Shown here piece after piece: positions 3,001 to 28,188 of a DNA stretch of 64,000 nt (its first letter is position 1; every line of letters starts with the position of its first letter). The stretch is taken from the IMG/VR virus record IMGVR_UViG_3300032296_003403, positions 1 through 64,000 of that record. One strand, 5' to 3'. This DNA is from a virus. Both the position numbers and the translations under genes were made by a program. Under the pieces are notes generated by a model. It was not told the DNA's origin. It did not search any database and worked only from the letters and a program-made list of their open reading frames with translations.

Positions 3001-5263
3001 CACCATCATCCGCTATTGTCAGTGATATAGAAGATCCACTAGAACCAGACGAACCTGAAGTACCAGTAGATCCGGAAGTACCTGATGAACCTGCCGATCC
3101 ACTTGAACCCCTAGACCCGGATGAACCAGAAGTACCGCTAGATCCTGAAGTACCTGTGCTACCAGATGATCCAGAAGTGCCGGAACTACCAGTAGAACCA
3201 GAGGTTCCTGTAGATCCGGAAGTACCGGATGATCCGCTTGTACCAGTAGAACCAGATGAGCCAGTAGAACCGGAGGTGCCAGATGAACCACTAGTTCCTG
3301 TACTACCTGATGTACCTGTAGACCCAGAAGAGCCTGATGTACCTGAACTACCTGTACTACCACTAGAACCTGATGTACCTGTACTTCCACTAGAGCCACT
3401 AGTTCCTGAAGAACCAGACGAGCCACTTGTACCAGTAGATCCTGAACTTCCACTAGAACCTGAGGTACCTGTAGAGCCGGAAGAGCCGGAAGTACCAGAA
3501 GAACCATCTTTACCGGAAGAGCCAGAACTACCTGATGTACCGGAAGAACCAGATGTACCTGTAGACCCACTAGAACCTGATGATCCAGATGAACCACTAG
3601 ATCCAGAAGATCCACTAGTTCCAGAAGATCCATCTCTACCTGCTGAACCAGAAGAACCACTTGTACCTGCTGTACCGCTAGATCCGTCTCCTCCACTGGC
3701 TCCTGCTAAGTTTATTTCCCAACTAGAATAAGTTCCAGATCCTACAGTTAAGTTAGGAGTTCCATACACTAAAAGACCAGTTAAAACATTATATGATATT
3801 ACAGGAACCTCTTGATAGTTGTTTACGTCATAAGCAATTATCGCAGTTTGTCCTATAGAATAAGCTAATCCGGGTTCTACATACAAAGATCCACTTTGTC
3901 CCAATGTAATAGAACCTGTAGAAGAAGTTAAATATCTATCTCCAGAAAGTCCTGCAGATCCACTAGATCCTGAGGAACCTGATGTACCACTAGAACCAGA
4001 GGATCCAACTGTACCACTAGATCCAGAAGTGCCTGATGATCCTGAAGTACCACTAGAACCTGTTGAACCTGCTGTACCGGAACTTCCTGAGGTTCCAGAT
4101 GAACCACTAGTTCCAGTACTACCGCTAGATCCGGATGTACCTGTGCTACCAGAAGACCCAGTAGATCCTGAAGAACCTGATGAACCCGTAGATCCAGATG
4201 TTCCTGAACTACCTGAAGATCCTGCAGTTCCAGAACTGCCAGAGGAACCTGATGTACCTGTACTGCCACTAGATCCAGTACTTCCAGAAGATCCAGAGGT
4301 GCCAGAAGAACCACTAGTACCACTCGATCCTGATGTCCCGGAGGAACCAGATGTACCAGAAGATCCACTAGTTCCTGAAGATCCGCTACTACCAGACGTT
4401 CCAGATGAACCGCTAGAACCAGAAGTTCCTGATGATCCCTCTGCTCCTGAAGATCCACTAGATCCTGATGTACCGGACGATCCATCTACCCCGGAAGATC
4501 CACTAGATCCTGATGTACCGGAAGAACCCTCTGCTCCTGAAGATCCGCTAGAACCGGATGTACCAGAAGTACCTCCACTTCCTGAAGAACCAGTAGATCC
4601 AGTCATTCCACTAGTGCCTGATGTACCAGAAGTACCTCCGCTTCCTGAAGAACCAGTAGATCCTGTTGCTCCACTAGTACCAGAGGTTCCTGGGGCTCCT
4701 TGGGCTCCTGATATTCCAGAAGTACCTGAAGAACCAGAAGATCCATCACTTCCAGAACTTCCACCTATTCCACTAGTAGAGTATTTAAATTCTCCAGTAT
4801 TAGGATCTATTACTACATAATAGTCAGCACTAGATGTGAATTGTAAATAAGGGTTATATATAGATCCTGATATAAACAGAGATCCTGTAAATTCATGGGT
4901 GTCATCTATGGTATCTCCAAATTTAGTAGATCCTGATGAATACAAAATTGAAGAAGATTGATAGCTAATTACAAGAACATCTATAGAAGCTGTACCGTGT
5001 ATTACTAAATCTCCATAAATAGATTGACTTCCATAGAAAATGTTAGATCCAGTAGTGGCTAAAGAAGCAGATTCTCTAGTAAAAACAGGGTCTACTTCAT
5101 TGAAATGTGATGCAGATAAGGCATAAGAAGCAGATTCTACAGAACCAGAAAAAGATCCTGTAAAAGAACCACTAAAAGAACCTGCTGTAATTGTACCATA
5201 GGAAGTTATATTATTAAACGAAGCATCTCCTCCTTCACTCGGTACTTGTAGCCAAATAGCCAT
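1..5263 (-). CDS. Giant collagen-like tail fibre / appendage protein (C-terminus outside window)
   Basis: I read this frame codon by codon through its non-repetitive parts and found no stop from the ATG at 5263 to base 1, so at least 1754 residues are encoded and the gene continues off the left edge. Residues 1-157 form a head with short beta-type repeats (TAGSFSGSFTGSFSGS). Four blocks of Gly-X-Y triplets follow, dominated by GSS, GTS and GST: about residues 158-441, 521-744, 928-1401 and from 1611 onward. Three non-collagenous domains separate them (442-520, 745-927, 1402-1610). The last contains Cys and Trp and precedes GRPGQDGQNG. This is a trimeric-fibre design, probably a tail fibre or head/tail appendage. 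The triplets contain almost no proline, so stability must come from Ser/Thr-rich packing or glycosylation. The gene sits downstream of the gp13-gp14-gp15 cluster behind an ATATTTATA motif. Position as receptor-binding fibre is inferred. Confidence 0.85.
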   Translation of the reverse strand, partial: MAIWLQVPSEGGDASFNNITSYGTITAGSFSGSFTGSFSGSVESASYALSASHFNEVDPVFTRESASLATTGSNIFYGSQSIYGDLVIHGTASIDVLVISYQSSSILYSSGSTKFGDTIDDTHEFTGSLFISGSIYNPYLQFTSSADYYVVIDPNTGEFKYSTSGIGGSSGSDGSSGSSGTSGISGAQGAPGTSGTSGATGSTGSSGSGGTSGTSGTSGMTGSTGSSGSGGTSGTSGSSGSSGAEGSSGTSGSSGSSGVDGSSGTSGSSGSSGAEGSSGTSGSSGSSGTSGSSGSSGTSGSSGTSGSSGTSGSSGTSGSSGTSGSSGSTGSSGSTGTSGSSGSSGTAGSSGSSGTSGSTGSSGSSGSTGSSGSTGTSGSSGSTGTSGSSGTSGSSGTAGSTGSSGTSGSSGTSGSSGTVGSSGSSGTSGSSGSSGSAGLSGDRYLTSSTGSITLGQSGSLYVEPGLAYSIGQTAIIAYDVNNYQEVPVISYNVLTGLLVYGTPNLTVGSGTYSSWEINLAGASGGDGSSGTAGTSGSSGSAGRDGSSGTSGSSGSSGSSGSSGSSGSTGTSGSSGTSGSSGSSGKDGSSGTSGSSGSTGTSGSSGSSGSTGTSGSSGSSGTSGSSGSTGTSGSSGSTGSSGTSGSSGSTGTSGSTGTSGSSGTSGSTGSSGSTGTSGSSGTSGSTGTSGSTGSSGTSGSSGSTGTSGSSGTSGSSGSRGSSGSAGSSGTSGSTGTSGSSGSSGSSISLTIADDGVVQGTGIQYLNFAQNITAVIVNGTASISTAGIDTGSSSIPNVMNLIYYDETFSTDYSGSGESTNLKAYTLPSNSYSHIKVEAIVQNRYEVDANSRADYIWRFYSGSAVIGTYTERIISSNAAGADSGDRIVTTLSSIISGSQTGNTTLGITVSQSVVNNANVASRVLAFRVYGYANVGTGTSGTSGISGSSGSSGSSGTRGSSGSSGSSGSSGSTGTSGSSGSTGTSGSSGSTGTSGSSGSTGSSGSTGSSGSSGTSGSSGSSGTSGSSGTSGSSGTSGTSGSSGSTGTSGSSGTSGSSGSTGTSGSSGTSGSSGSTGTSGSSGSSGTRGSSGSSGSSGSSGTAGSSGTSGETFGTSGSSGTSGSSGSTGTSGSTGTSGSSGSSGSSGSTGTSGSSGTSGSTGTSGSTGTSGSSGSSGSTGTSGSSGTSGSSGSSGSTGTSGSTGTSGSSGSSGSSGTSGSSGSTGTSGSSGSTGTSGSSGSSGSSGSSGSSGKDGSSGTSGSSGSSGSTGSSGSTGTSGSSGTSGSSGTSGSSGTSGSSGSSGTSGSSGTSGTSGSSGSTGSSGSSGTSGSSGSSGTRGSSGSSGSSGTSGSSGSTGTSGSSGTSGSSGSSGTSGSSGSTGSSGTSGSSGSSGSSGSSGSSGSSGRTPDLCITSTSCINISSTASVCNDYSFTESSPGGTTGFYTYPSKTLSYETFSGSIFLQWYAIDVPNRFTVKDSTLTNVWTSGWVGSASYSGPWGGSINAATAGNTTINVDTDTYYLVVETSISSSSDTWTVNILCQGSGSSQNTISYSGDTCWVPGQYVIISYDVSNYIIGRVLSSTSTTITYTTIESVGSGSYCNWSIGFLGRPGQDGQNGTSGSSGSSGSSGTSGSSGSSGTSGSSGTSGSSGSTGSSGSSGTSGSSGSTGTSGSSGTSGSSGSSGSSGTRGSSGSSGSTGTSGSTGTSGSSGSSGSSGSSGKDGSSGTSGSSGSSGSSGSTGSSGSTGTSGTSGSSGSSGS

Positions 5264-6833: not shown

Positions 6834-7322
6834 CTATGTAGATTTAACAATATTCAGTTTATTCAATCCTGTAAGATGTGTTTTACAGATTAGTGACCAT
6901 GATTCTCCATATTTTTCTAAGTCTTCTTCTAAAGAATATTCCGGATTTTTACCCATCACTCTTTGATTTTCTACTACAAGATCCACTTCATAGTAAGATT
7001 CCTGCCAATATATTATATCTCCAGCTTCTGGTACTAAATTAATATCTATCAAATCATCTCTTAAAAATCTAAAATCTGCTAATTGAGCCCTAGATTTTCC
7101 ATAAGTAGCATCATCAGAACTTTGTTCTTGCACTAAGTACAAACATGCAACCAATAAAGGTTGTTGATACATTTTACTTTTAGATTCTCCGTAAATATTA
7201 TACTTTGTTTCTGACAAAGAAAGTTTATAATACAGAACTTCTTCGGCTATAATTCTATTGACAAGCTGTCTAGAATGATGCCTGAAAAAACTCCTTGCTC
7301 TTATTCCTCCATATAGTGCCAT
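6834..7322 (-). CDS. 14: Neck/head-completion protein, gp14-like
   Basis: T4 gp14 is a neck protein joining the filled head to the tail. Here RIIAEEVLYYKLSLSETKYNI with a following YGESKS matches the T4 pattern of an ADVLVAESIQMRG helix followed by a FGED loop. The segment LVPEAGDIIYW followed by YYEVDLVVENQRVMGKNPEYS matches T4 EPKEGDLIYFP followed by FEINWVEP and YQLGQN. The protein is 162 aa, shorter than T4 gp14 (256 aa). It overlaps the preceding gene by one base and is followed by the gp15-like gene, the expected neck/tail-completion order. Confidence 0.7.
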   Translation of the reverse strand: MALYGGIRARSFFRHHSRQLVNRIIAEEVLYYKLSLSETKYNIYGESKSKMYQQPLLVACLYLVQEQSSDDATYGKSRAQLADFRFLRDDLIDINLVPEAGDIIYWQESYYEVDLVVENQRVMGKNPEYSLEEDLEKYGESWSLICKTHLTGLNKLNIVKST

Positions 7323-7717
7323 TAATCTAGTTTTACTAAAGTATCTATTTTAGGGCTAGCTGCAACTATTCCAGGTATGTTATATATCCCAGCTTTTTTA
7401 TCTGATTTTACCATTGCTTTTTTCAAAAATTCTAAATGTTTTTTAGGATCTTTGTTAGTTATAAACTTAACTTCTAAAGTGCTATATTCATAGTCCGTTA
7501 AAGTTCTATTTATTTTATCCAATCTCTTATCTCCTCTAAGATCAACAATAGTAACAGTTTGAACTCCTCTTACTCTTTCTACTGCTTGAACTCTATTTAT
7601 TTTCTTTTTAAACTTTACAAGAAAAACACAAGAATATGTATGAAAAGTTTTCTTTATAGATTCTTTATTTTTAAATCTATAATTTACATCTTCTAATATT
7701 ATTTCTATTATTTTCAT
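7322..7717 (-). CDS. Hypothetical protein between gp13 and gp14 (131 aa)
   Basis: I do not recognise this protein. It has an alternating beta/alpha pattern: a long beta strand FHTYSCVFLVKFKKKI, a helix INRVQAVERVRGV, a strand QTVTIVDL, then TLEVKFITNKDPKKHLEFLKKAMV. That is the layout of a small ferredoxin-like (ACT/HMA-type) fold. It is translationally coupled on both sides (one-base overlaps with gp13- and gp14-like genes), so it is probably a head-tail joining component or chaperone. No catalytic motif is visible. Confidence 0.6.
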   Translation of the reverse strand: MKIIEIILEDVNYRFKNKESIKKTFHTYSCVFLVKFKKKINRVQAVERVRGVQTVTIVDLRGDKRLDKINRTLTDYEYSTLEVKFITNKDPKKHLEFLKKAMVKSDKKAGIYNIPGIVAASPKIDTLVKLD

Positions 7718-9681: not shown

Positions 9682-11319
9682 TTAGAATCCGTTGTTAAGA
9701 TCTGCAACATGCACTTTACCAAAGAATTCGGCACGAAGCATTTTCTTAGCGTACCTGGTCATCAGACCTTTTCTTGGAGTGAAAGTCTCAGGATCATACA
9801 ACAATGGAGTCATGATCAATGGAATATAAGGACAGAAGGCAGCGCCAGTCTCAAGGAATTGGCTACCTTTGTAAGCCAAGAGAATAGTGTTCTCGTTCAT
9901 GTATGGGTTAACATACACTTTGTAACGGCTATTCAATTGACCAGCCTTGTGAGAGCCCATTGCAAATTCTTCTTTGCTACCATCGGTATCTGCAGCATAT
10001 CCAGGGATAGACTCGATAATTGTGGCAACAGCAGGAGAACACATTACAACGTTAGCTTGACCACGAAGGGTTTTCTTATGGATAGTCCTAGCTACACTTT
10101 GGATCTTGGTTCCGAGAGTTGCGAACCAGCCACCTTGTGTATTGTAGTAACCACCAGAACCAGCATTTTGAACACTCCACACTCCAGTAGCCTTGTTGTA
10201 GAAGGTATTGGAAGCAGCGGACCAGTATTCAGTAGTGTTGGCGTTTTGGATCAACATGTCGATGATTTCGAGGTCGATCTCAAGAGAGATATATTCTGAC
10301 AGAGTAGAGGTCAACTCAGCTTCAGCGTCAAGAGACTGGTAAGCATTCAGGTCTTGGCTGAATTCAGGAGTCCACTTAGCTTTCAGTTTCCTTGTTTTAG
10401 CAACTACAGCCTCAGAACGAAGTTCTACATTGATCTCAGGGATTGAGTTAGAACCAGTCAAAGGAGCTGCGCTTGTGTCTTCAAAGTCACCACGGCTGTT
10501 GTCAGCAGGCTGCTTTTGATAGAACAAAGAACCAGAGCTAGAACCATAGTTCAGGTGAGAACCAGAACCAGAAACTACGAAGAAAATAACTCCAGTAGTA
10601 GAGTTATAAGAAGTGAACTCAGCGATAACATTAGACTCGCTAACACCGCTACCAGTTACCATGAAGCCACGTACACCGTTCAGATCAATACCAGTATAGC
10701 TAGATGCACTGATCGCTACTTTACGGAGTTGACCAGCAGCTTGAGATGCACTATACAGTGAGTTGAAGTTGATATCGGCTTGAGAAGCAGTTGTTACTGC
10801 AGCTGTGTAAGAACCAGAGTAAGTGTTGATAGAGTAGCCAAAACGACCAGCGCCGTAAAGACCACCAGAAGGATCAACATCTTTTACGTTGGTAGTACCG
10901 TACATGCTGTCACCAATAGCGAAACGGTTGTTACCTACAGTACCTGGCTCATTCTTACCATACTTAAATTCAAGGAAGAATACAAGACCAGCAGGAAGAG
11001 TCATTGGTTGAACACTAACGAATTCTTTTGAAGAAATGTCAGCAAAAATCTTACGAACAAGAGGAAGAGCTACGCCAGCCCATTGCTCACCGCTACCTAC
11101 AGTGAAAGAACCACCAGTACCAGTTTGAGATTGTTCAACTAAAAGTTGCTTAGCTTGATTTTCGAGGATGATAGCCATACGCTCTTTACCGTAGGCTTGC
11201 TTTTGAAGGTCAGCACCTTCCAAAAGACCAGTCTCACCCCATTTTTTTACTAACCTCTGAGCTTCGTTCATCATTGAAGCATAAGGGTTAGAACTTTCTA
11301 AGAGAGATTGTACGTTCAT
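9682..11319 (-). CDS. 23: Major capsid protein, gp23-like
   Basis: This is the hexameric shell protein of the T4-like head. The N-terminal region resembles T4 gp23: a helix with ENQ (residues 53-55), then LLVE/QSQTGTGG near residues 59-70, a likely gp21 cleavage site of L-x-E type (after Glu62). EFVSVQPMTLPAGLVFFLEF matches T4 DICGVQPMNSPTGQVFALRA. The C-terminal TPRKGLMTRYAKKML is also family-like. At 545 aa it is close to T4 (521 aa). Its codons are visibly richer in G/C than neighbouring genes, as expected for the most highly expressed protein. It lies between scaffold and a strong terminator, and its leader is almost pure A/T with no Shine-Dalgarno sequence. Confidence 0.93.
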   Translation of the reverse strand: MNVQSLLESSNPYASMMNEAQRLVKKWGETGLLEGADLQKQAYGKERMAIILENQAKQLLVEQSQTGTGGSFTVGSGEQWAGVALPLVRKIFADISSKEFVSVQPMTLPAGLVFFLEFKYGKNEPGTVGNNRFAIGDSMYGTTNVKDVDPSGGLYGAGRFGYSINTYSGSYTAAVTTASQADINFNSLYSASQAAGQLRKVAISASSYTGIDLNGVRGFMVTGSGVSESNVIAEFTSYNSTTGVIFFVVSGSGSHLNYGSSSGSLFYQKQPADNSRGDFEDTSAAPLTGSNSIPEINVELRSEAVVAKTRKLKAKWTPEFSQDLNAYQSLDAEAELTSTLSEYISLEIDLEIIDMLIQNANTTEYWSAASNTFYNKATGVWSVQNAGSGGYYNTQGGWFATLGTKIQSVARTIHKKTLRGQANVVMCSPAVATIIESIPGYAADTDGSKEEFAMGSHKAGQLNSRYKVYVNPYMNENTILLAYKGSQFLETGAAFCPYIPLIMTPLLYDPETFTPRKGLMTRYAKKMLRAEFFGKVHVADLNNGF

Positions 11320-11347: not shown

Positions 11348-12454
11348 TTACTTGATAATACCAGCGAGTTTCTGCCACCTGTTCACTTGTTTGTCAACGT
11401 CAGAAATTACGCTTTCAGTTATAACACGTTTAGTTGAGGTACCAGCGGCGCTAGAAGCAAATCCGATAGATTCTTTAAGACCAGTTTTTACGTTGTCATT
11501 TTTAACACTAAAAGCGTGATCTAAAGATTCGTGTACAATTTTAGCTTCTTTTGCAGTTTCGGCTTTGTCGAAAGCGCTGATAACTTTGATTTTTTGTTGT
11601 TCAGATAAAGTGTACTTGCGGAGGATCTTGTTCAGATAAAGAAGTTTAGCGTTGATCAAGTTAGTTTCGTTAACTTTTTGAGCTAATTCTTCAGCTTGAC
11701 GCTTAATTTCTTGAACATCTTCTGTTTCTTCACCAAGACCTTTTGATTTAGCAGCTTGTTTTGCTATCCTCATAAGGATGTCTTGAGCTTTTTCAGGAAG
11801 AGCGCTAATAAGTTTATCAAGTACTACTGGACTTGATGCAAGACCTGCCATTCCTAGCAATACTTGTGCTAATTCAGTAGCTCCGCCTTCTTTTAGATCG
11901 GCAGATCCTTCTTCTTCTGGTTCAGCAGCTTCGTCAGCTTTTTCTTTGTCATCTTCTTCGTCCTTCATTTCAGCTAAGAGAGCGTTAATGTCGATTTCTT
12001 CGTCTACAGACTCTTCTTCCTCTTCTTCCTTTTCTTCGTCTTCTTCGTCTTCAACTTCTTTTTTCTCCATTACTTCCTTTCCTTTCTCTTCTTCACCTTT
12101 TTCCAACTCAGCTAAGATGGCGTCAAGATCAAAAGCTTCATCAGCTTCTTCTTCTTCTTTATGTCCGTAAGCTTCATGTTCGTCTTCTTCAGACTCTTTT
12201 TCAGCTTCTTCCATACCGTACCCTTCGTCGTCACCTTCTTCTTCATGCTTTTTCTCGTCCAGTTTAGCAGCTTCATCCTCGTCTTCTTCATATTTTTCTT
12301 CGAGGTCATCAGCTTCTTCAGCCAAACGTGCGGCAAGCATAGCCTTAACTTTCGAATCAAAAGCTTCGTTTAAACTTGCTTTTGCATTCTCAATAGCCAT
12401 TTTTTTGATAGCATCCGCATCAGCGATTGCATCTTTGAGCAAATTTGTGTTCAT
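11348..12454 (-). CDS. 22: Prohead core scaffold protein, gp22-like
   Basis: The scaffold protein fills the prohead and is degraded by gp21 before packaging. The 368-aa product is extremely acidic: residues about 50-190 are mostly Glu, Asp, Lys and Ala. The C-terminal third is helical (ELAQKVNETNLINAKLLYLN) and ends in VNRWQKLAGIIK, a terminus I recall from other T4-like gp22 proteins. It sits between protease and capsid genes as in T4. Unusually for this window, the start is preceded by AAGGA at Shine-Dalgarno distance, and the leader can fold. Confidence 0.85.
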   Translation of the reverse strand: MNTNLLKDAIADADAIKKMAIENAKASLNEAFDSKVKAMLAARLAEEADDLEEKYEEDEDEAAKLDEKKHEEEGDDEGYGMEEAEKESEEDEHEAYGHKEEEEADEAFDLDAILAELEKGEEEKGKEVMEKKEVEDEEDEEKEEEEEESVDEEIDINALLAEMKDEEDDKEKADEAAEPEEEGSADLKEGGATELAQVLLGMAGLASSPVVLDKLISALPEKAQDILMRIAKQAAKSKGLGEETEDVQEIKRQAEELAQKVNETNLINAKLLYLNKILRKYTLSEQQKIKVISAFDKAETAKEAKIVHESLDHAFSVKNDNVKTGLKESIGFASSAAGTSTKRVITESVISDVDKQVNRWQKLAGIIK

Positions 12455-12621: not shown

Positions 12622-13230
12622 TTAACAATGACAAACTCCTGTATTATTGCATATAAGATCTTTAACTATATTGTCTATAGTTTTGAAGTTTTCAGTGTGT
12701 TGATACCCTTCTCTTAAACTTAAATTAGCTCCTTGAGTAGACTCAAAAGACACTAAATCAAAAGTTAAAAGCTTAAAATCATCATTAACAATTACTGTAC
12801 CGTCATGTGCTTCTTGCACACTTCCCATTCCTCTGGAACTTATTCCGACTGGAATTCCTCTCCGGAGTAATCCTGCAGCTATTCTTCCAGCTGGGAATTC
12901 ATCTCCATCTAATATTTCTATATCGCCTTTAACATCATCTCCATCCCAGTAAATTCTTACTATATTATGAGATACGTTTTTAAGATTTACTACATTAGAA
13001 TCACTATGATCTAACTCACCTAAAGCACGATTATGCTTTACCATAGTATCATTGTAATTATCTATCTCTTGACGAAGTACTCCTTCAGGGTACACCCTAC
13101 CGTTCCTATTTTTTGCATTAGCCCTCTGTATAATAACATCCTTTATAATCATCTTATCCCCAGGCTTATATGCCTCTGTTAACTGGGACGGAGCTATGTT
13201 CAACTTAAAATATTCTGTAAGTACTTGCAT
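12622..13230 (-). CDS. 21: Prohead core protease, gp21-like
   Basis: Gp21 is the serine protease of the prohead; it processes shell, scaffold and internal proteins after L/I-x-E sites. Candidate catalytic residues are His75 in GELDHSDSN and Ser131 (or Ser132) in GIPVGISSRGMGS, the pattern of the U9/S80 herpesvirus-type proteases. The 202-aa length agrees with T4 gp21 (212 aa). The N-terminal MIIKDVIIQRANAKNRNGR with the following VYP is characteristic. The tail ends in Cys-His-Cys. It lies upstream of the scaffold and capsid genes, and its presence makes the capsid-targeting peptides seen at 22-27 kb meaningful. Confidence 0.9.
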   Translation of the reverse strand: MQVLTEYFKLNIAPSQLTEAYKPGDKMIIKDVIIQRANAKNRNGRVYPEGVLRQEIDNYNDTMVKHNRALGELDHSDSNVVNLKNVSHNIVRIYWDGDDVKGDIEILDGDEFPAGRIAAGLLRRGIPVGISSRGMGSVQEAHDGTVIVNDDFKLLTFDLVSFESTQGANLSLREGYQHTENFKTIDNIVKDLICNNTGVCHC

Positions 13231-17414: not shown

Positions 17415-19268
17415 CTAAATATCCTGATTAAGTATGTTATTCTCATCTAAAAGCTTAGATTCTTCTTGTTTTTCTTCAAAAAGTACTATTGGCTTCTTTC
17501 TTTTCGATGCCAGCTTGCCTAAAGAGTTCTCTAACTGAAAGGCACTTATCTTGTCTTTCCTAGTTTTATCGAACGGACTTTCTGGTTTCATATCCTTGCT
17601 TCCTAGAGGATCCCTTCCAAATGCAGATTTATCTGTCTTGAAAATTGATGCCTTTTCTTTAGGCCTTCCTACAGGATTCTTATCCAACTCATCGTACCCG
17701 TCAGGAACATCTGCACCTGGTTTCTCATCATTGCTGGAGTATACGGATGCTAAATCATGCGGGGTACCGTAAGATTCTCCGGAAAGTGCAGGATCATTTC
17801 CTTCATTTTCGATTTGATTGTATCTAAACAACCTCTTAACATCTTCAACTATGAGGTCTCTTTCTTGGTTAAGTTGATCTTCAGACATTTGGAATATCTT
17901 ATCTCCTATCCAATCACTAGAGAATATCTTCTTATCCATTATATCCCCTGCAAGAGCTACCTTTTCTTTCAATAAGGCTATTTTCTCTTGTTCGTAAATT
18001 ATAGAAGGATTATTAAGTTCTAAACTAAAATTAAGAAGATCAGCATCTTCAAACCCTTGTACATACAAATGTATTATGGCTATCTTCTCTAATTCACTTA
18101 TTATTATCCTTTGAATTCTTTCTACAGTTCTGCTAAATCTTACGTCTAATGCACTTATAGTAGACTTTCCGTTAAGTTCGTCAGAGTAGTTTAAAAAGGC
18201 TTTAGGAACTTTCAAAGAACCCAACATCAAGTCTCTAAGGAACTCCACGTCTTCTATACCAGCATAATCTAATCCTTTTGTAGTATCTATTTTGGTAGTG
18301 TTATCACCAGGACGTACTGGAATATAAAAATCCTCCAGCATGTTCTGTACGTTAAACTTAAGATTGTAATCCCCTGTCTGCTGATCTAAAAACGGAGTTT
18401 TCTTCATTCCATTAATAGTCTGCTGAACAAAAGCATTTACTTCATTTGGAGGGATATTACCTACGTTTATATAGAAAACACGCTTTTCTGGGGCTCTCAT
18501 TATTCTATGAAGGAGCATAGCATCCATCATTAGAATATACTGTTTGAAATACTTCCTTGCTGGTTCTACATAAGATCTACCAAAAGGTAAGTAGTTGGTA
18601 TCTGTAAGAAGCCTGAAATGGGCTATCTCAAAGTTTTCAAAAGATTCTTTATTTTTAGTTGCAGTAGTTCCACCAGCCACTGCTACCGGATCATATATAA
18701 ATTTAATGTAAGATGGGTTGTTTGGGTCTTGTCCTTCTTCTCTAATCATATCATATACGGAAAGAGGTCTTACATTGTATATACCGTACTTTTCTGCTAT
18801 ATCCAACTTCAAGAAAAAATCTCCATACTTACACATAGACCTAATCCACATAGGCAGATTAAATTCTATGTTTAATATTTGATAGAAAAGATTGTACAAA
18901 ATTTTCTGTATGTTTTCATTGCTACTTCTAATTTTTAAAACTTCATTAGTTTCTCCTTTTAACGTAGCTTCTTCTGACAATATATCCAATACAGAAGATA
19001 TCAGACCATCGGTATCCATAGCCTCATAATCTGCATACAGCTGTAATCTTAAAGTTTGATAGTTTAAGGTAGGATTAAATTGCATTCTTTGACCTGCCTT
19101 ATGGAGACGAGTAAATCTATCCACTAAGCTATTTGTCTGAAGCTGGCCAAAAGACTGTATCCTTTCTACATCGGCTACTTTCAATTGTTTTCCACCTACG
19201 TTTCTAATTACAACGTCGGTTGAAAATAAGCGTTTTAGCCTGGGAAATAACGAACGATCTACTGGCAT
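17415..19268 (-). CDS. 20: Portal vertex protein, gp20-like
   Basis: The portal forms the dodecameric channel at the special vertex and nucleates head assembly. Diagnostic stretches are RSMCKYGDFFLKLDI, LPFGRSYVEPARKYFKQYIL, and RIMRAPEKRVFYINVGNIPP, which are typical of T4-like portals. A stretch of LDYAGIEDVEFLRD followed by LMLGSLKVPKAFLNY and GKSTISALDVRFSRTVERIQ is also diagnostic. The 617-aa length is above T4 (524 aa). The C-terminus (from about 500) is a charged low-complexity tail with Pro/Asp/Lys. It lies 41 bases after the terminase gene. Confidence 0.93.
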   Translation of the reverse strand: MPVDRSLFPRLKRLFSTDVVIRNVGGKQLKVADVERIQSFGQLQTNSLVDRFTRLHKAGQRMQFNPTLNYQTLRLQLYADYEAMDTDGLISSVLDILSEEATLKGETNEVLKIRSSNENIQKILYNLFYQILNIEFNLPMWIRSMCKYGDFFLKLDIAEKYGIYNVRPLSVYDMIREEGQDPNNPSYIKFIYDPVAVAGGTTATKNKESFENFEIAHFRLLTDTNYLPFGRSYVEPARKYFKQYILMMDAMLLHRIMRAPEKRVFYINVGNIPPNEVNAFVQQTINGMKKTPFLDQQTGDYNLKFNVQNMLEDFYIPVRPGDNTTKIDTTKGLDYAGIEDVEFLRDLMLGSLKVPKAFLNYSDELNGKSTISALDVRFSRTVERIQRIIISELEKIAIIHLYVQGFEDADLLNFSLELNNPSIIYEQEKIALLKEKVALAGDIMDKKIFSSDWIGDKIFQMSEDQLNQERDLIVEDVKRLFRYNQIENEGNDPALSGESYGTPHDLASVYSSNDEKPGADVPDGYDELDKNPVGRPKEKASIFKTDKSAFGRDPLGSKDMKPESPFDKTRKDKISAFQLENSLGKLASKRKKPIVLFEEKQEESKLLDENNILNQDI

Positions 19269-19309: not shown

Positions 19310-20890
19310 TTACCTTATTAACCAGCTTATATCCTCTTGTTGACCATTGACATTCAACTGATAAGGATTCTGGAAGTTATTAGAGGTTGGGTTTTTAGTG
19401 TTGTTGTAACTAGTACCTCTAGATATATTGTTAATTAAAGCCCTCTGCAAGTCTATTCCTCTAGATCTGTACTCCACAGCACTGTCTCTAAGATATAATC
19501 CTATAGCGTAGGCCATAACACAATCATCATGATATCCAGTTTGAGCTATTGGTTTTCCATTTTTCCATACAAATGTAGACATTTCTGATGACAATCTCCT
19601 GGAATTCAATGATATACTGTGATCTCTCACGTATTGTTTAAATGATAACAGAACTTCAGGCCTTGTTTTGGTAGAAGTTGTGAATCCAGGAGTCATTTTA
19701 CTAGTATCGTAATCGTAAAATTTATTAATATACTGTGATACATTTGTAGTATCTCCTTTAGGAGAATAGTATATGTTATTGTAATTAAGCTCTAGAACAT
19801 CGGAAACTGTTGCATGTCCTAATCCTGTATTTTCAACTACCAAAAGAGCTGAGTTGTACTCGGTGGCTATAGAAACTCCAAATTTAGATAAGGATTTAGT
19901 GTCCATATCTCCTTTATACTCTGCTACTTGAGACCCTGTAAATACATCTATAACTTGAATTACTGAGGAGTCAGATCCATCCCCTTTAGCGGTATCTATA
20001 ATAACCATGTAAGATCTTTCAAGAATGGGATATTCCCAAATCCAGTAATCTTTTTTAGGACCCCTCATTTCTATAGGATCCTTAGTTCTTTCAGAATAGT
20101 ACTCCAAATCTTCAGATTCAAAATAGGTGTCTCCAGAAGATATAAAACTACAGTCACATTCTTGTGCTGCAAATCTTTTTCCTAGTTCTTTATCTTGGTC
20201 TTCTCTCCATTTTTTATCTCTAAGAGGATGGACGTTCCAAGGAAGTCTAACAGGTACAAAATTATTCTCTTCCGTTTCAGCTCCAACCCATTGTTGATGA
20301 AACCATTGTCCAACACCATTAGGAGTTGAAAGTACTATAGCTCTACCACCTGTAGCTAATGTTTGTTGAGCTGATCCCCATAGATCTTCTGCGTTTTCTA
20401 TAAAAGCAGCCTCATCTAATATAAGAACATTGGCTGTATATCCCCTGGCACTCTCAGAAGCTCCAGAAGCGGCTTTTATCTTAGATCCATTTTCCAGTAT
20501 TAGACTTAATTTATTATCTTCAATAGAAGGAACTCTTAACCAGCTGGGCAGTTGGGAATATGCAAACCTGACTTTATCAACAATATTCCTAGCTTTTTCT
20601 TGAGTAGGAGCTAAAGCTAATATTGATTGATCTTTCTTAAAAATCATTAACCACAGAGCATATGCTGCTGTTAAAGTGGTTATACCTAATTGCCTGGATT
20701 TTAAGATGAGAATCCTATCATGTTTATTTAAAAGAAACAACAGCTTTTCTTGAAAAAGATAAGGGCTAAATAGCATTCTGCCCTCTGAAGTCTGTATATA
20801 AACAAATTTTTTAAGGAAGTATATAGGATCTCCGGCACACTTCAAATACTCCTCACGAATTATCTCTTTTAATGATTTCTCACTTGACAT
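19310..20890 (-). CDS. 17: Terminase large subunit, gp17-like packaging motor and nuclease
   Basis: This is the ATPase that drives DNA into the prohead and the nuclease that cuts the concatemer. The P-loop region is KSRQLGITT at 64-72; the Lys of a classical GKT is replaced by Ile, so the upstream Lys64 would serve. Walker B VLILDEAAF is at 155-163 and the coupling motif STPNG near 188-192. The RNase H-like nuclease has Asp299 in VIIDTAKGDGSD and HDD at 454-456. The 526-aa length is a little below T4 (610 aa). It is encoded just upstream of the portal. I saw no small terminase in the window. Confidence 0.93.
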   Translation of the reverse strand: MSSEKSLKEIIREEYLKCAGDPIYFLKKFVYIQTSEGRMLFSPYLFQEKLLFLLNKHDRILILKSRQLGITTLTAAYALWLMIFKKDQSILALAPTQEKARNIVDKVRFAYSQLPSWLRVPSIEDNKLSLILENGSKIKAASGASESARGYTANVLILDEAAFIENAEDLWGSAQQTLATGGRAIVLSTPNGVGQWFHQQWVGAETEENNFVPVRLPWNVHPLRDKKWREDQDKELGKRFAAQECDCSFISSGDTYFESEDLEYYSERTKDPIEMRGPKKDYWIWEYPILERSYMVIIDTAKGDGSDSSVIQVIDVFTGSQVAEYKGDMDTKSLSKFGVSIATEYNSALLVVENTGLGHATVSDVLELNYNNIYYSPKGDTTNVSQYINKFYDYDTSKMTPGFTTSTKTRPEVLLSFKQYVRDHSISLNSRRLSSEMSTFVWKNGKPIAQTGYHDDCVMAYAIGLYLRDSAVEYRSRGIDLQRALINNISRGTSYNNTKNPTSNNFQNPYQLNVNGQQEDISWLIR

Positions 20891-22543: not shown

Positions 22544-22828
22544 CTAATTATCTTTAGATTGCTTCTTTTTAGGTTCAGATCCTTTCTTAGGCTCCCACCA
22601 ATTGGTACAATATTCATTTGGATCGTATGGTATAGAGTCAGTTCCAGCCCATTTTTGATAATACTCATTTATACAATGATACTCTTCACTATTATCTTTA
22701 TGAACCCACCATTTGCAATTTGCACAACAAGATCCTCCATATGGAACTTTTAAACCAGCCTTATGGTTTTCCGGTACTTCGTATGGCCCTCCGCCATATT
22801 CTTCCATTAATTTTAAAAAACTTATCAT
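22544..22828 (-). CDS. Cys-rich small protein, possible metal/Fe-S binder with targeting-like N-terminus
   Basis: The 94-aa protein starts MISFLKLMEEYGGG, resembling a capsid-targeting peptide with an L-x-E step. It then has VPYGGSCCANCKWWV, a further Cys in YHC, and a C-terminal YCTNWWEP, giving five cysteines. I recall phage proteins with this GGS-C-x-NC-K pattern, compared with high-potential iron-sulfur proteins, but the ligand is not proven. The C-terminus is a Lys-rich tail. Start and stop overlap neighbours, so it is co-translated with the GAF-like gene. Confidence 0.5.
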   Translation of the reverse strand: MISFLKLMEEYGGGPYEVPENHKAGLKVPYGGSCCANCKWWVHKDNSEEYHCINEYYQKWAGTDSIPYDPNEYCTNWWEPKKGSEPKKKQSKDN

Positions 22829-23439
22829 ATTTTTAAATAGTTGTTTAGTACTCCTCCTATTGCAGATAACTCTAATTCTAAATCAATTACTTGTTTGTCA
22901 TCCAGCTCTTTTTTCTTAGTACAGTAGTCTATACCAACAATTCCCACAAATTCATCTTTTATAGTATATAAAGGAAAAAGATACGTACTTTTTACATTAG
23001 CCCCAGGAATTACAGAAGTAAAGCCTTCAAATTGCCTGTTTTCTAATGATGTATCAGGTATTGATAGTACCTTTCCCTTATACAAAGTATTAATAGCAGA
23101 ACTAAATAAGCTTACAGGTATATTTTGAAATTGATTCTGGCAAGGTACTATCCCGGTAGAAGTTATTTCATATACAATACTAAATTTTTGTATAGACTTT
23201 CCAGTAGGGTAAAAAGTTCCTCCATTATGAAACTGTGCAAGCCAAACTCTATCCGCAGAAGAACAATTTTTTATGTTTTCTAGTTTAGAATTTACTGTTT
23301 CGTTAACTTCTATAGACTCTGATAATGGGTCTTTTTTCTTAGGAGAAGTCCATAAATTAACATAATGAACTGCTATTGGACCTATTATAGAAGTTGTTAC
23401 AGCAGTTATTAAAGCTATCACAATTTCAGCATTCATCAT
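22825..23439 (-). CDS. Membrane-anchored GAF-like protein
   Basis: Residues 3-26 (AEIVIALITAVTTSIIGPIA and following) form one membrane segment. From about residue 55 the protein has a GAF-type small-molecule-sensor pattern: ADRVWLAQFHNGGTF, KFSIVYEITSTGI, FQNIPVSLFSSA, then YLFPLYTIKDEFVGIVGIDY and a closing helix. No output domain (kinase, cyclase, DNA-binding) follows; the protein ends at 204 aa. A stand-alone membrane GAF protein could sense a nucleotide signal or act as an interaction module. It sits among putative internal head proteins but lacks a targeting peptide. Confidence 0.6.
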   Translation of the reverse strand: MMNAEIVIALITAVTTSIIGPIAVHYVNLWTSPKKKDPLSESIEVNETVNSKLENIKNCSSADRVWLAQFHNGGTFYPTGKSIQKFSIVYEITSTGIVPCQNQFQNIPVSLFSSAINTLYKGKVLSIPDTSLENRQFEGFTSVIPGANVKSTYLFPLYTIKDEFVGIVGIDYCTKKKELDDKQVIDLELELSAIGGVLNNYLKI

Positions 23440-23720
23440 TTCTTTTTCTTTCCTTTTTTAGCCCTAGCCCATAATTTAGCGTCAGCCTTTCTAGCACCGC
23501 CTTTACCTGTAGCAAAACTATTAACTCTGCCCATAGCCCACTGATGTTGGGGCACTCCCGGTCTATGACCTCCTTTCCAAGCAGCTAAACCTTTACGATA
23601 CACTGCTTTTAATATTGATTTAGATATTCCAGTAGATTTAGCTTTTTTTTCTAATGCTTTTTCTACGTTTGCACTCATAGCCTCTTGTAAAGCTTCTATT
23701 AAAATATCTTTAAGTTTCAT
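23436..23720 (-). CDS. Small basic protein with capsid-targeting-like N-terminus (DUF5824-like)
   Basis: The 94-aa product begins MKLKDILIEALQEAMS, an amphipathic helix ending LQEA, which fits the gp21 cleavage pattern L-x-E/A. The core ISKSILKAVYRKGLAAW followed by KGGHRPGVPQHQWAMGRVNS and FATGKGGARKADAKLW is a phage family I believe is catalogued as DUF5824. The C-terminus is Lys-rich. It overlaps its neighbours by four bases on each side. A packaged, DNA-contacting head protein is the likeliest role. Confidence 0.65.
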   Translation of the reverse strand: MKLKDILIEALQEAMSANVEKALEKKAKSTGISKSILKAVYRKGLAAWKGGHRPGVPQHQWAMGRVNSFATGKGGARKADAKLWARAKKGKKKK

Positions 23721-23989
23721 TTTCCAAATTTTTTATGAAATGCTTTTGTTGCTGCTGAAACTTTTGTTTTATACTTTTTTTTCTTGCCTTTATCTGCATA
23801 ATCAGCTTTCCATTTACCATATGCTGATGGATCGTCTGATTTTAACTTGCTTACTCTTTCTATCTCATCTTTCATATCAGCCTTATCCTTTGTGAGATAC
23901 TTTCCAGGTACTTTTTTACCTGACTTAGTTCTCTCAGCTTTAGGTTTAGCCTCTAATAAAATATGTTTTAAAGCATCTATGAGTTTCAC
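23717..23989 (-). CDS. Small Lys-rich protein with capsid-targeting-like N-terminus (DUF5872-like)
   Basis: The 90-aa protein begins MKLIDALKHILLEAKPK; LLE/A is an exact L-x-E/A processing site. The remainder (GKYLTKDKADMKDEIERVSK followed by AYGKWKADYADKGKKKKYKT and a closing HKKFG) matches a family I recall as DUF5872, found in phages and giant viruses. It is strongly basic, consistent with a DNA-contacting internal head protein. It starts on the stop of the upstream gene. Confidence 0.65.
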   Translation of the reverse strand: MKLIDALKHILLEAKPKAERTKSGKKVPGKYLTKDKADMKDEIERVSKLKSDDPSAYGKWKADYADKGKKKKYKTKVSAATKAFHKKFGK

Positions 23990-24891
23990 TATTCAGCAGA
24001 TTTTATAGCTTGTGCAGTTGCTATGGCATATTGTTTTGGTCCCATTTTAGCTTTACCCCCACCTTTCATAGCCATTGCTTTTATTATATCTTCTTTCTTA
24101 GACTTTTCAGCTTTTGTGAGTTTTTTTTCATCTACAGGATTAATCATGGCTTCCTCTTCATCATCTTCTTCCTCTTCCTCGTGTCCTCCTAATTCATGGA
24201 ATCCTTGAGCTGCTTGATCTATAAAGTTTTCTGCATTAGTTATGTGATCTTGTATCCATCCTGGGATATCTCTCTCATCATCTCCTAATTTATTCATTAA
24301 ATCTGCGCAAGACTGCATTATGGACTTCAAGCTATTTTGGGCCATGGATACTTCGTGGTCTTCCCCTTCGGTAACTGCCCCACTGTTTTTACCCTCAATG
24401 AAATCCTCTAGCTTATCAATAGGATATTGTTTAGGGCTTACAGTATGCTTAAGGTAGTATTGTACAATTCTTTTTTTCTGATCAGTATTGGGGTATTTTT
24501 TAAAGGCTTCATAAAAAGCAGGGATATTTCCAAAAAGACTTTTAGTTAATAGATATCCTGTTGCTGTTTTTGCTGACAAAACTATAAATTCATATAAGGC
24601 TTCCCAATTCTTTGGATCAGTAAGAATAGACTGTAAATCCTCATTTACATTTTCTTTCTTGATATTCTTCCACATGGCTGCAGCGGCTACTTTCTCACCT
24701 TTTTCTTTTGATCCGTATTCCTTAGCGGCTTTTGAAGCAATTTTTTCAAATCCCTTGCCTTTTTTACCTATATCTTTACCTGCTTTAGCTTTTTTTGCTA
24801 CATCAGATTTTTGTTTTTTAGTTAAACCAGCAGATGGTTTTTTCTTTTTTGCCTCAAGAAGAGACTCTTTAAACATTTCAAACAGGTTCAT
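23989..24891 (-). CDS. Internal head protein candidate with capsid-targeting peptide (300 aa)
   Basis: The N-terminus MNLFEMFKESLLEAKKKK is the clearest capsid-targeting-like sequence here, with LLE/A at the expected cut. Next comes a Lys/Ala-rich segment with EYGSKEKGEKVAAAAMWK. A helical domain follows around 95-160. Then there is a segment I have seen in phage proteins (SLKSIMQSCADLMNKLGDDE, DIPGWIQDHITNAENFIDQA). An acidic run EEEEEDDEEE at about 235-245 precedes a basic C-terminus with MGPKQYAIATAQAIKSA. Several modules appear to be strung together, as in polyvalent injected proteins. Confidence 0.6.
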   Translation of the reverse strand: MNLFEMFKESLLEAKKKKPSAGLTKKQKSDVAKKAKAGKDIGKKGKGFEKIASKAAKEYGSKEKGEKVAAAAMWKNIKKENVNEDLQSILTDPKNWEALYEFIVLSAKTATGYLLTKSLFGNIPAFYEAFKKYPNTDQKKRIVQYYLKHTVSPKQYPIDKLEDFIEGKNSGAVTEGEDHEVSMAQNSLKSIMQSCADLMNKLGDDERDIPGWIQDHITNAENFIDQAAQGFHELGGHEEEEEDDEEEAMINPVDEKKLTKAEKSKKEDIIKAMAMKGGGKAKMGPKQYAIATAQAIKSAE

Positions 24892-24908
24892 TTTAATTCG
24901 TTTATAGA

Positions 24909-24917
24909 TATAAATAG
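24909..24917 (-). promoter_or_regulatory. CTATTTATA motif before the internal-protein cassette
   Basis: Sense-strand CTATTTATA, 17 bases before the start at 24891, at the head of a run of overlapping genes. Confidence 0.45.
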
Positions 24918-25496
24918 TTAATTTTCTAACCTTTCTTTCATTTCTTTAAGCTCCTCTTTCCATTTTTCGACCATTTTATCCTTATCTATACCACCTTCCC
25001 ACTCTTCCACATCTCCTTGTTCAGTTACATAGGTTTCTTTTACATTAGACCTTACAAATTCTTCTATAAACTGTTCCGCTTCCTCTATATGGGTTATTAT
25101 GTTTTTAGTAATCATATTTTTCTTATACTCCTCATATTTTCCTTCCATTTTAAGCCTGCTTTCCATTACAACTACGCAATTAAAACACATACCGTGTAAA
25201 GGGTACATTTTTTTATCTAAAGCGTTTTTTGTCGGTTGTGAACATTTGGGACAGAGTAAAGGAATTCTAGTTAGCTTTTTAATCCTATCTAGTTTAGTTA
25301 CGGTTTGTTTTATACCGTCTTTTATAGTCCAGGTTTTATCCCCCTCTTCCCAAACATCACCTTCTACGTGATCTTCTGTTTGTTTTTCATACCCTACTTG
25401 TACGCCTGTAGAATCTCCGTATTTCTTAGTAATAATGTTCCTGAGGCGTTGTACGTCCCTTTCCCTAAACTCTTTCTTTAATTTTGTTTCTGACAT
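24918..25496 (-). CDS. Zinc-ribbon protein of unknown function (192 aa)
   Basis: A treble-clef-like Cys arrangement is seen in LLCPKCSQPTKN followed by MYPLHGMCFNCVVVMESR, giving CPxC and CxxC pairs that could hold one zinc. The N-terminal part has a helix (EFRERDVQRLRNIITKKYGD) followed by a beta segment. The C-terminal half is an acidic/basic coiled coil (VEKWKEELKEMKERLE). I recall similar proteins in large T4-like phages without assigned function. No capsid-targeting-like N-terminus is present. Confidence 0.6.
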   Translation of the reverse strand: MSETKLKKEFRERDVQRLRNIITKKYGDSTGVQVGYEKQTEDHVEGDVWEEGDKTWTIKDGIKQTVTKLDRIKKLTRIPLLCPKCSQPTKNALDKKMYPLHGMCFNCVVVMESRLKMEGKYEEYKKNMITKNIITHIEEAEQFIEEFVRSNVKETYVTEQGDVEEWEGGIDKDKMVEKWKEELKEMKERLEN

Positions 25497-25511
25497 AACT
25501 ATAGTTTTATT

Positions 25512-25946
25512 TTATAATTCTTTAAATTTTTCCGGTTCAAATAGAATGACTTCTATTCCTCTTTTTATTCCATCGTATCCTTTAGATTTTAGATATTCTA
25601 CATCTCCGTAACCGGATCCTTGGGTTACTGGAAATGAATATCCTGATTCTTTTGATGCTTTTTCCGCCTTATCTTTTAGTTCTTTGGATTTTTCTGGAGA
25701 ATCTAGTTTATACAGGTTAGCTCCAGTTATATCTATCTTATAAACATTTTTACCTCTGAATTTATTGTCTCTTAGATTATCCTCAGCTCCTTTTCCAGTA
25801 TAAAAATAAACTCCTGGATAATACCCTGAAGGGGTTGAATTAGATTTTCTATCTTTCCAATGGTAGTCACTGACTCTTATTGCTATGTTGTCATCGACTA
25901 TTTCACTCAATACAGAGTTTTTTAATATATCGATAAACTTTATCAT
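25512..25946 (-). CDS. Putative ADP-ribosyltransferase-like protein with capsid-targeting-like N-terminus
   Basis: The 144-aa protein begins MIKFIDILKNSVLSEI, an amphipathic helix with an L-x-E step like its neighbours. The remainder has the pattern of the small ADP-ribosyltransferase-like domains of phage polyvalent and MuF-linked proteins: GVYFYTGKGAEDNL (45-58), NVYKIDITGANLYKL (67-81), then LKSKGYDGIKRGIEVILFEP (119-138). The YDGI followed by a valine-rich strand and FxPE is the most characteristic part. A complete R-S-E triad cannot be assigned with certainty. T4 Alt is a targeted, injected ADP-ribosyltransferase, so this could be a miniature analogue. Confidence 0.5.
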   Translation of the reverse strand: MIKFIDILKNSVLSEIVDDNIAIRVSDYHWKDRKSNSTPSGYYPGVYFYTGKGAEDNLRDNKFRGKNVYKIDITGANLYKLDSPEKSKELKDKAEKASKESGYSFPVTQGSGYGDVEYLKSKGYDGIKRGIEVILFEPEKFKEL

Positions 25947-26206
25947 AGTTTTTTTATTCTTATTTTTAAATCACCTGTTCCTTTTATAGCCCTATGCCAC
26001 TCTCCCATTGGTATATAAATCTGCCCTTCTATTTTAATAGGAAGTTCCCCGTCTTTCTGAAAAAACCAATCGGTAGGTTCTATGGGCTCAATTATTCTGT
26101 CCTCCCTGTCTCTATGCCACCTTAATTCCCCAGAGTCTACGTCTGCTTTAAACACCCTTTCGTACCAACCTTCATTATATAACTCAGTATAGGGTCTGTT
26201 TTCCAT
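25943..26206 (-). CDS. Cupin-like small phage protein (87 aa)
   Basis: After an N-terminal helix (YTELYNEGWYERVFKADVDS) the protein has ELRWHRDREDRIIEPIEPTD, then QIYIPMGEWHRAIKG and a final strand. The spaced His residues (WHRD and EWHR) on predicted beta strands suggest a small cupin-like barrel, with the His and Glu possibly holding a metal. I recall similar WHRDxEDR proteins in T4-like phages of unknown function. It overlaps the next gene by four bases. Confidence 0.55.
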   Translation of the reverse strand: MENRPYTELYNEGWYERVFKADVDSGELRWHRDREDRIIEPIEPTDWFFQKDGELPIKIEGQIYIPMGEWHRAIKGTGDLKIRIKKL

Positions 26207-26212
26207 TTTACT

Positions 26213-26590
26213 TTATTCTATGCTATATTTAGATTTTATGTACTTTTCTACTTCTTCTGGATCATAAGAAAGCAGTCCTCCTATTTCTCTGGTCTCTTCT
26301 GGTGTGGCTTTGTAGCTAAGGTACCCTCCGTACTTATTTGCTATTTTTTCTAACCTCTCTACTTTTTTTTCACTCCCCGGTCTATAAACTATATAAAGAC
26401 CTTGAGGATTCTTTTCTACTTTCTTTATTAAGAGCCCTTCTTTTTCTATCTTATCTCTTAAAAAAGAATAGTGATTTCCTAGAACTCCTACATCTCTTCT
26501 ACGATCTATAACAGTTTGAAGAGAGTCTTCATCATCATAGGCTTCTTCTGGCTTTATGTATTCCAATAATATGTTTACAAGCTTTACCAT
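26213..26590 (-). CDS. Hypothetical protein with capsid-targeting-like N-terminus (125 aa)
   Basis: It begins MVKLVNILLEYIKPEEAYDD, where LLE resembles the gp21 processing site, followed by an acidic stretch. The rest appears to be an alpha/beta domain (LRDKIEKEGLLIKKVEKNP, GLYIVYRPGSEKKVERLEKI) ending in a helix. No family recognised. The start overlaps the upstream stop (TAATG), so it belongs to the same translational unit as the surrounding putative internal head proteins. Confidence 0.5.
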   Translation of the reverse strand: MVKLVNILLEYIKPEEAYDDEDSLQTVIDRRRDVGVLGNHYSFLRDKIEKEGLLIKKVEKNPQGLYIVYRPGSEKKVERLEKIANKYGGYLSYKATPEETREIGGLLSYDPEEVEKYIKSKYSIE

Positions 26591-27183
26591 TACCAGTATC
26601 CTGTAAAACTTGATTTTAATCCTAACATTGAAGCATATCTAGGGAGCCTGCAAGCCCAATATCCTGCACTAGTTCTGTCTTTATTCTGTGCGCACTTATG
26701 TCTAGCTGCAAAAGATTTACGTGCCTTAGGATCATTTATTTTAGCCTTTAAGCCACTTGTATCTCCAAAAGAAACTTTCTTAATACCTCCACCTGGTTTA
26801 CGTACATATACGTAGAATTTTTTTGATCCTCCACGCTTAGGTTTATTTAATGCAGGTTGTTTTTTCTTTGCCTTTGCTTCTAATATCTGCTCTTCGCTCA
26901 TAGGAAAATCAAGAGGAACTTTAATACCTTCATAATAGCCAAACTCACCAAGATCTGTATTTTTCATTAGCTTTTCTTCCTCTTCGCTTAATATGATCTC
27001 TCCTTTTCTATAAAGCTCTCTAGCTTCTCTAAACAGCTCAAAGTACTTACTTGAAAATGGACGATATATATTTTCAGTAAGAGGCCTTTCATTTTTTATA
27101 TGGTATGACAGACCTTCAGAAATAGTAGATTGTCCACAATTACAATCTTCAGTAATTTCTTTTAAAAAACTAGTCAACTTCAT
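26590..27183 (-). CDS. Basic phage protein with Cys/His C-terminal module (197 aa)
   Basis: The N-terminus MKLTSFLKEITEDCNCGQ resembles the targeting peptides of the cassette. Residues 70-120 include LSEEEEKLMKNTDLGEFGYY and ILEAKAKKKQP, which contains a second possible LEA step. The C-terminal part (KKFYVYVRKPGGGIKKVSFG, then KARKSFAARHKCAQNKDRTS and AGYWACRLPRY) is a module I recall from T4-like phage virion-associated proteins ending in YWxCR. It is strongly basic and may bind DNA or scaffold. Function unproven. Confidence 0.6.
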   Translation of the reverse strand: MKLTSFLKEITEDCNCGQSTISEGLSYHIKNERPLTENIYRPFSSKYFELFREARELYRKGEIILSEEEEKLMKNTDLGEFGYYEGIKVPLDFPMSEEQILEAKAKKKQPALNKPKRGGSKKFYVYVRKPGGGIKKVSFGDTSGLKAKINDPKARKSFAARHKCAQNKDRTSAGYWACRLPRYASMLGLKSSFTGYW

Positions 27184-27555: not shown

Positions 27556-28188
27556 TTAATTATTTTCTTCTGCTACTGGGTTAAATACATTTTTCCAAAA
27601 ACCATCATTAAACATCTCTTGATATTGTTGCTTATAATTTTTTAATAATGGAGATTTGTCTACCAAAGGTTCATCATGAGATTTCTCGTTCATTATTGAC
27701 AAATACTCATTAACCTGTTCGTCGCTAAAGTCATCTGGCAACTCTTCTTTTGCAGCTTGTACATCATTATTCTGGGCTGCTTGTTGTAAAGCTGCGGATG
27801 ATTTATAAAACTGAGATGGGACAAGTTGCATTCCGTAGTAAGGAAATCTTGAAAACTTAGCCTGTAATTTCTTATTTCTGGCTGATTTTTCGTCTAAAGC
27901 TATATAAGCAGGGTTTTGAGGTTTTACTTCAAAAATAGAATACACTTCTGATAAAGGGCCTTTTTCTTTGGCTTTTATTATAGTAGCTTGTGGGGAAAAG
28001 CTTGATTTAATAAGTACTTCCCACATTCTAGCTTTCTGGTCTTGTGTTATGGGACCGTTAGTTTTTCCTATTACGACATTTACATGACCTACTTCTGGCC
28101 TAGTTAAAAGCCAGTGTAAAGCATTTAAATGCATTTTTGTTGGAGGGGCGAACTCTCCAGGATAGTAGCATGGATACTGTTCTTGCAT
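27556..28188 (-). CDS. Nucleotidylyltransferase-fold protein with divergent active-site motifs
   Basis: The N-terminus GEFAPPTKMHLNALHWLLTR follows the plan of HIGH-superfamily nucleotidylyltransferases such as NMN or phosphopantetheine adenylyltransferases. The canonical T/H-x-G-H is here T-K-M-H (17-20), with Met replacing Gly. The second motif, usually ISSTxxR, appears as KSSAALQQA with the Arg replaced by Gln. Either the enzyme uses an altered active site or only the fold is kept. A C-terminal extension (about 150-210) ends EMFNDGFWKNVFNP. It lies behind an ATATTTATA motif overlapped by a hairpin. Confidence 0.65.
   Translation of the reverse strand: MQEQYPCYYPGEFAPPTKMHLNALHWLLTRPEVGHVNVVIGKTNGPITQDQKARMWEVLIKSSFSPQATIIKAKEKGPLSEVYSIFEVKPQNPAYIALDEKSARNKKLQAKFSRFPYYGMQLVPSQFYKSSAALQQAAQNNDVQAAKEELPDDFSDEQVNEYLSIMNEKSHDEPLVDKSPLLKNYKQQYQEMFNDGFWKNVFNPVAEENN

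Follow-up and report, generated by a model that had tools for sequence, protein, structure and literature searches.

Putative T4-type capsid-targeting N-termini on a cassette of small phage proteins and their resemblance to scaffold ends

The window analysed here is the first 64 kb (positions 1 to 64,000) of the virus record IMGVR_UViG_3300032296_003403, which totals 71,299 bases. Judging by the head genes of the window, this is a T4-like phage, with Flavobacterium phage immuto and Microcystis phage Mel-JY01 as the nearest named relatives (50-54% identity of the major capsid protein). Positions 1-5000 hold a long low-complexity repetitive coding region whose open frames overlap on both strands and which may encode collagen-like fibre repeats. 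Head genes are listed below; a slash in a sequence marks the predicted cut.

9682..11319, minus strand: gp23 major capsid protein, predicted propeptide ending LLVE62/Q
11348..12454, minus strand: gp22-like scaffold, N-terminus tag-like, C-terminus ..NRWQKLAGIIK, a motif that serves as tag in relatives
12622..13230, minus strand: gp21-family prohead protease, presumed processing enzyme (phrog_207, E=4e-46)
17415-19268: portal
19310-20890: terminase

The presence of a gp21 in the window, as the earlier note had claimed, was thus confirmed. The scaffold gene was assigned from its position, its acidic composition and a C-terminus conserved among relatives; a PHROG search gave no match for it. The window therefore encodes both a gp21-family protease and a gp22-type scaffold core, as for a T4-type capsid-targeting sequence (CTS). 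Beside the terminase lies a late cassette of small genes, seven of them for predicted head cargo.

22544..22828, minus strand: tagged cysteine-rich cargo, MISFLKLME/EY..
22825..23439, minus strand: untagged cassette gene, hydrophobic N-terminal segment
23436..23720, minus strand: tagged cargo, DUF5824 (Pfam E=6e-16), MKLKDILIEALQE/A..
23717..23989, minus strand: tagged basic cargo, GTG start, MKLIDALKHILLE/A..
23989..24891, minus strand: tagged cargo, MNLFEMFKESLLE/A..
24918..25496, minus strand: untagged cassette gene, conserved among relatives
25512..25946, minus strand: tagged cargo in a variable slot, no relatives detected, MIKFIDILKNSVLSE/I..
25943..26206, minus strand: untagged cassette gene, domain that other phages have joined to those of 23717 and 23436
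26213..26590, minus strand: tagged cargo in a variable slot, no relatives detected, MVKLVNILLE/Y..
26590..27183, minus strand: tagged cargo, MKLTSFLKEITE/D.., further conserved site LTE37/N, C-terminal domain phrog_7595

The minus strand of the interval 22544-27183 encodes all seven N-termini precisely as they had been quoted. A similar short N-terminal peptide is thus found on seven unrelated proteins of one phage (genes 22544, 23436, 23717, 23989, 25512, 26213 and 26590), and each of the seven contains an L/I-x-E step among roughly its first 20 residues: LME9 in 22544, LQE13 in 23436, LLE13 in 23717, LLE13 in 23989, LSE15 in 25512, LLE10 in 26213 and ITE12 in 26590. The genes 22825, 24918 and 25943 carry no tag. 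For the 25512 protein, a by-eye guess of an Alt-like ADP-ribosyltransferase domain was rejected as unsupported, because no relatives were found in viral contigs or named phages and there was no PDB or meaningful Pfam match; an AlphaFold2 model of it made without alignment (mean pLDDT 38) was discarded. For 26213, weak hits to BrxB (PADLOC) and to NleE (Pfam, under the cut-off) were set aside because of their shortness or sub-threshold scores.

DUF5824 proteins of other contigs have varied starts of one design (MINKLDILKQILILE/Y, MNFLNIIKEILLE/V, MISLLKLLLE/Y and MKDYKNLINCIQE/A), and a tag profile was trained solely on these, with the record's own DUF5824 gene 23436 left out of the ranking. 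Among 84 N-termini of the record, the profile placed 23717 first, 23989 second, 22544 fifth, 26590 sixth, 26213 seventh and 25512 twelfth. Scores above 3.5 were reached by 7 of the 84 N-termini versus 1 of 174 in the control phages, Flavobacterium phage 11b and crAss001 (Fisher p=0.002), and at thresholds from 2 to 5 the p value of this enrichment ranged from 0.002 to 0.023. By these statistics the likeness of the seven N-termini is not due to chance. By itself, the tag profile is too unspecific for naming single genes; its false positives comprise the terminase of the window phage and the DNA ligase in T4.

The earlier note had proposed a search of the record with an N-terminal profile. When run, the search recovered the tags of the interval, while tag-like starts were not confined to it. 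One possible candidate is the following.

7322..7717, minus strand: possible further tagged protein beside the neck genes, MKIIEIILE/D..

Other tag-like starts lie at or past the window end in the same record, at 63962-64576, 64573-65181 and in a ParB-like gene at 65809-66345, which looks tagged when read from an internal ATG (MKLIDILLKEA). The two adjacent proteins at record positions 63962-65181 (L002 5962-7181), starting MRFILLLKE and MRFTSILFEMLKE, are each weakly DUF6934-like. An untagged nucleotidyltransferase-like gene occupies 27556-28188 of the window; its relatives in L089, L090, L095, L096 and L104 are tagged (e.g. ..EILKE/V).

Tags recur in relatives of every tagged family that has relatives. 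With start sites of the contigs taken from a simple ORF caller and DUF5824 left out, the tag was kept (profile score at least 2) in 22 of 47 relatives of tagged families versus 5 of 82 relatives of untagged cassette genes (p=9e-8, indicative because relatives are not phylogenetically independent), and four of these five scorers belong to one nucleotidyltransferase family whose relatives are tagged. The profile was preferred here because a loose regular-expression rule also fires in untagged families (28/82). Across related contigs, 241 of 3,238 genes scored at least 4 and were spread over 72 cargo clusters, a figure to be read as a census and not as an independent test, since DUF5824 training loci and redundant contigs are included. 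The same cassette occurs in three relatives (L250, L258 and L092), where the two slots that the window fills with genes lacking relatives are either empty or taken up by other proteins, mostly tagged. In the slot flanked by the relatives of 26590 and 25943, the MVKLVNILLE protein of the window is replaced by a 921-residue MANKNKEIQDLIKKILRE protein in L250 and by MIKLSKLLLE in L258; between 25943 and 24918, the slot contains MIKFIDILKNSVLSE in the window, two tagged genes in L258 and one in L092, and is empty in L250. In L090, a zeta-toxin-like kinase (1887-2672, Pfam E=8e-13) has the tag MIKLLDLLLE/A in front.

The presumed gp23 junction in relatives, located via the preceding NQAK motif, which excludes the E, reads [LI][VIM]xE/[QASVT], with E in 48 of 48 distinct variants. 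The tags follow this same rule, which also comes close to that of T4 gp21, a protease cutting at L/I-x-E (PMC9026906); compared with gp23, the tags vary more in the residue that follows the cut (A, Y, I, D, E). Domains that are separate, individually tagged genes in the window cassette are single fused proteins in other phages, in the orders 25943-23717-23436, 23717-23436-26590 and cytidyltransferase-23436-26590. In 27 of 29 fusions, an L/I/V/M-x-E site lies at most 28 residues before the DUF5824 domain, compared with 7.9 +/- 2.4 sites in random windows of the same proteins (0 of 2,000 draws reached 27), a count that overstates independence because several fusions share kinship. Fused cytidyltransferases start MIKFSEIRE/A or MKSFREIRE/A. 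The LIE/S before the 26590-like domain in a fused L141 protein aligns with LTE37/N of 26590, which suggests that the conserved cut in 26590 is probably LTE37/N, deeper than the first L-x-E, and hence a longer propeptide.

Measured virions offered a comparison for packaging. The N-termini of cyanophage S-CREM2, also a T4-like phage, in two genome stretches were compared with the published virion table (PMC10665884), using a regular-expression rule and the DUF5824-trained profile, both set before the S-CREM2 sequences were viewed. Tags were enriched in non-structural virion proteins by the rule (p=0.002) and by the profile (Mann-Whitney p=8e-4; p from 6e-5 to 0.004 at thresholds 0 to 3). Virion-positive non-structural proteins include some that start MKDFDSFLEE (SAM hydrolase), MKDLHSFLTE, MKRFDAFLTE (kinase), MQTFSMFFSE and MKNFSSFLTE (cytidylyltransferase); a strict pattern that found 5 virion-positive and 0 negative proteins was devised after the sequences had been viewed and is not one of the tests. 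At a score of at least 0, 7 of the 14 non-structural virion proteins, about half, carry a tag, so that entry by other routes, or contamination, also plays a part; the authors of the table warn that highly expressed proteins may occur in the samples unpackaged (PMC10665884). A Cas9-like protein reported in the S-CREM2 virion (L264 7704-10313) has LRFASFMAE/A, a possible targeting tag, near its annotated start. Cytidylyltransferases have been found in the virions of the cyanophages S-SM1 (PMC3037559), S-CREM2 (PMC10665884) and S-SZBM1 (PMC9146016), and an NMNAT-like cytidylyltransferase in that of S-SCSM1 (PMC9602691).

The tags were also compared with the scaffold ends. For the N-terminus, a profile was built from the scaffold starts (such as MANRDLLKEAIADAK) of related phages with the window lineage excluded; of the seven tags, it placed five at ranks 2, 3, 6, 9 and 11 of 85 and the other two at 38 and 44, while 0 of 174 control N-termini reached 3; tags 22544 and 26213 score low on it and do not resemble the scaffold. 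Among 99 T4 genes, the scaffold profile placed IPIII first and IPII second, both proven CTS proteins, and gp22 fourth, whereas the DUF5824-trained profile gives IPIII just -1.2. In place of the tags' E, scaffold N-termini mostly have D; in T4 IPIII, Asp at position 10 stops cutting but not targeting (PMC9026906). At the other end, the last residues [KR][MW]QKLAGII are nearly invariant in scaffolds of related phages, and this motif recurs as an N-terminal tag in 20 proteins of 17 cargo clusters (typically MKKQILSEEFxRMQKLAGIITES), compared with 6 internal matches in 753,000 residues. RMQKLAGII was seen as tag on unrelated small proteins at L003 21676-22140 and L005 25061-25456, in L256, L084, L230, L017 and others, usually with an I-x-E site next; the record that contains the window yielded no such tag. 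Two further repeated N-terminal types, MKKSQLRxIIKExL and MENxFDLKKFLVENKLTxNSKLL, occur in L003 (immuto gp072, gp080, gp094, gp095; gp076, gp077, gp092) and at L005 1803-2318 (gp003), the former also on one gene between portal and protease. Because the scaffold N-terminus profile finds T4 IPIII and IPII and the C-terminal motif recurs as a tag, the tags look like copies of scaffold ends.

Sequence statistics, retention of tags in relatives, the sites in fused relatives and the virion mass spectrometry of S-CREM2 together support the earlier proposal of capsid targeting followed by gp21 processing. The seven proteins of the window phage are probably head cargo bearing a T4-type CTS that ends in a gp21 site. 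The amphipathic N-terminal peptide of 9-15 residues would act as a T4 capsid-targeting sequence and would bind the scaffold core during prohead assembly, apparently by imitating the terminal peptide of the scaffold; the gp21 protease would then cut after the L/I-x-E step, leaving the cargo free inside the head, from where it would enter the next host together with the DNA. It is improbable that the tags target the prohead but that the proteins are core or scaffold accessories similar to T4 gp67 and gp68, degraded or left behind instead of being delivered as effectors: similar N-termini do occur on genes of relatives between portal and protease, the position of T4 gp67/gp68, but the cargo domains are varied, can be exchanged from one relative to another, include nucleotidyltransferases, phosphatases and a zeta-toxin-like kinase, unlike core proteins, and cytidylyltransferases occur in mature virions. 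More improbable still are generic amphipathic helices for membrane contact, folding or oligomerisation, with an incidental L-x-E of residues common in helices and no packaging role. In their favour, small phage proteins commonly start amphipathic and the profile has false positives among unrelated proteins, but the enrichment over control phages, the retention in relatives, the sites before the shared domain in fusions and the S-CREM2 virion data argue against them.

Among the closest known systems is the T4 CTS (Mullaney and Black 1996), which Alt and the internal proteins carry and which is reviewed in PMC9026906; the start MKTYQEFIAEA, attributed by the earlier note to T4 internal and injected proteins, holds for IPII and IPIII, while IPI and Alt start differently. 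As in T4, a short N-terminal peptide with an L/I-x-E end stands on unrelated proteins of a phage that has gp21, gp22 and gp23. Unlike in T4, the cargos of the window are different, more numerous and grouped in a single late cassette next to the terminase, the tags are more diverse, and relatives have fused multi-domain versions and a second tag class that copies the scaffold C-terminus. In phage P1, an N-terminal segment directs DarB into the head, the first 30 residues sufficing for a reporter (PMC9024508); the likeness is one of description, and DarB is one large antirestriction protein, unlike the cargos here. In phiKZ and SPN3US, a gp21-related protease trims the N-terminal propeptides of inner head proteins behind a short motif that ends in E, as predicted here; in the parts of PMC5694885 and PMC10052503 covered, these propeptides are mostly long (over 100 residues), the SPN3US motif is A-x-E, unlike the tags of the window, and no tag common to many small unrelated cargos is described.

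The T4 CTS is thus already known; the breadth of tag use and the scaffold mimicry look new, and in the literature searched, in which few subscription papers were covered, we found no description of mimicry of the scaffold N- or C-terminus. We are evenly divided on whether scaffold ends form a general address code across a large T4-like clade, in which cargo would copy the N-terminus (DLLKEAIAxA-like) or the C-terminus ([KR]MQKLAGII, often with its own I-x-E), so that many exchangeable proteins would be co-delivered with the genome. If true, this would give a concrete answer to how capsid-targeting sequences are recognised, namely by imitation of the scaffold's own ends. Moreover, a short N-terminal signature would suffice to pick out, by sequence only, the phage proteins that are likely injected at infection, and thus counter-defence and take-over proteins might be found in uncultured phages.
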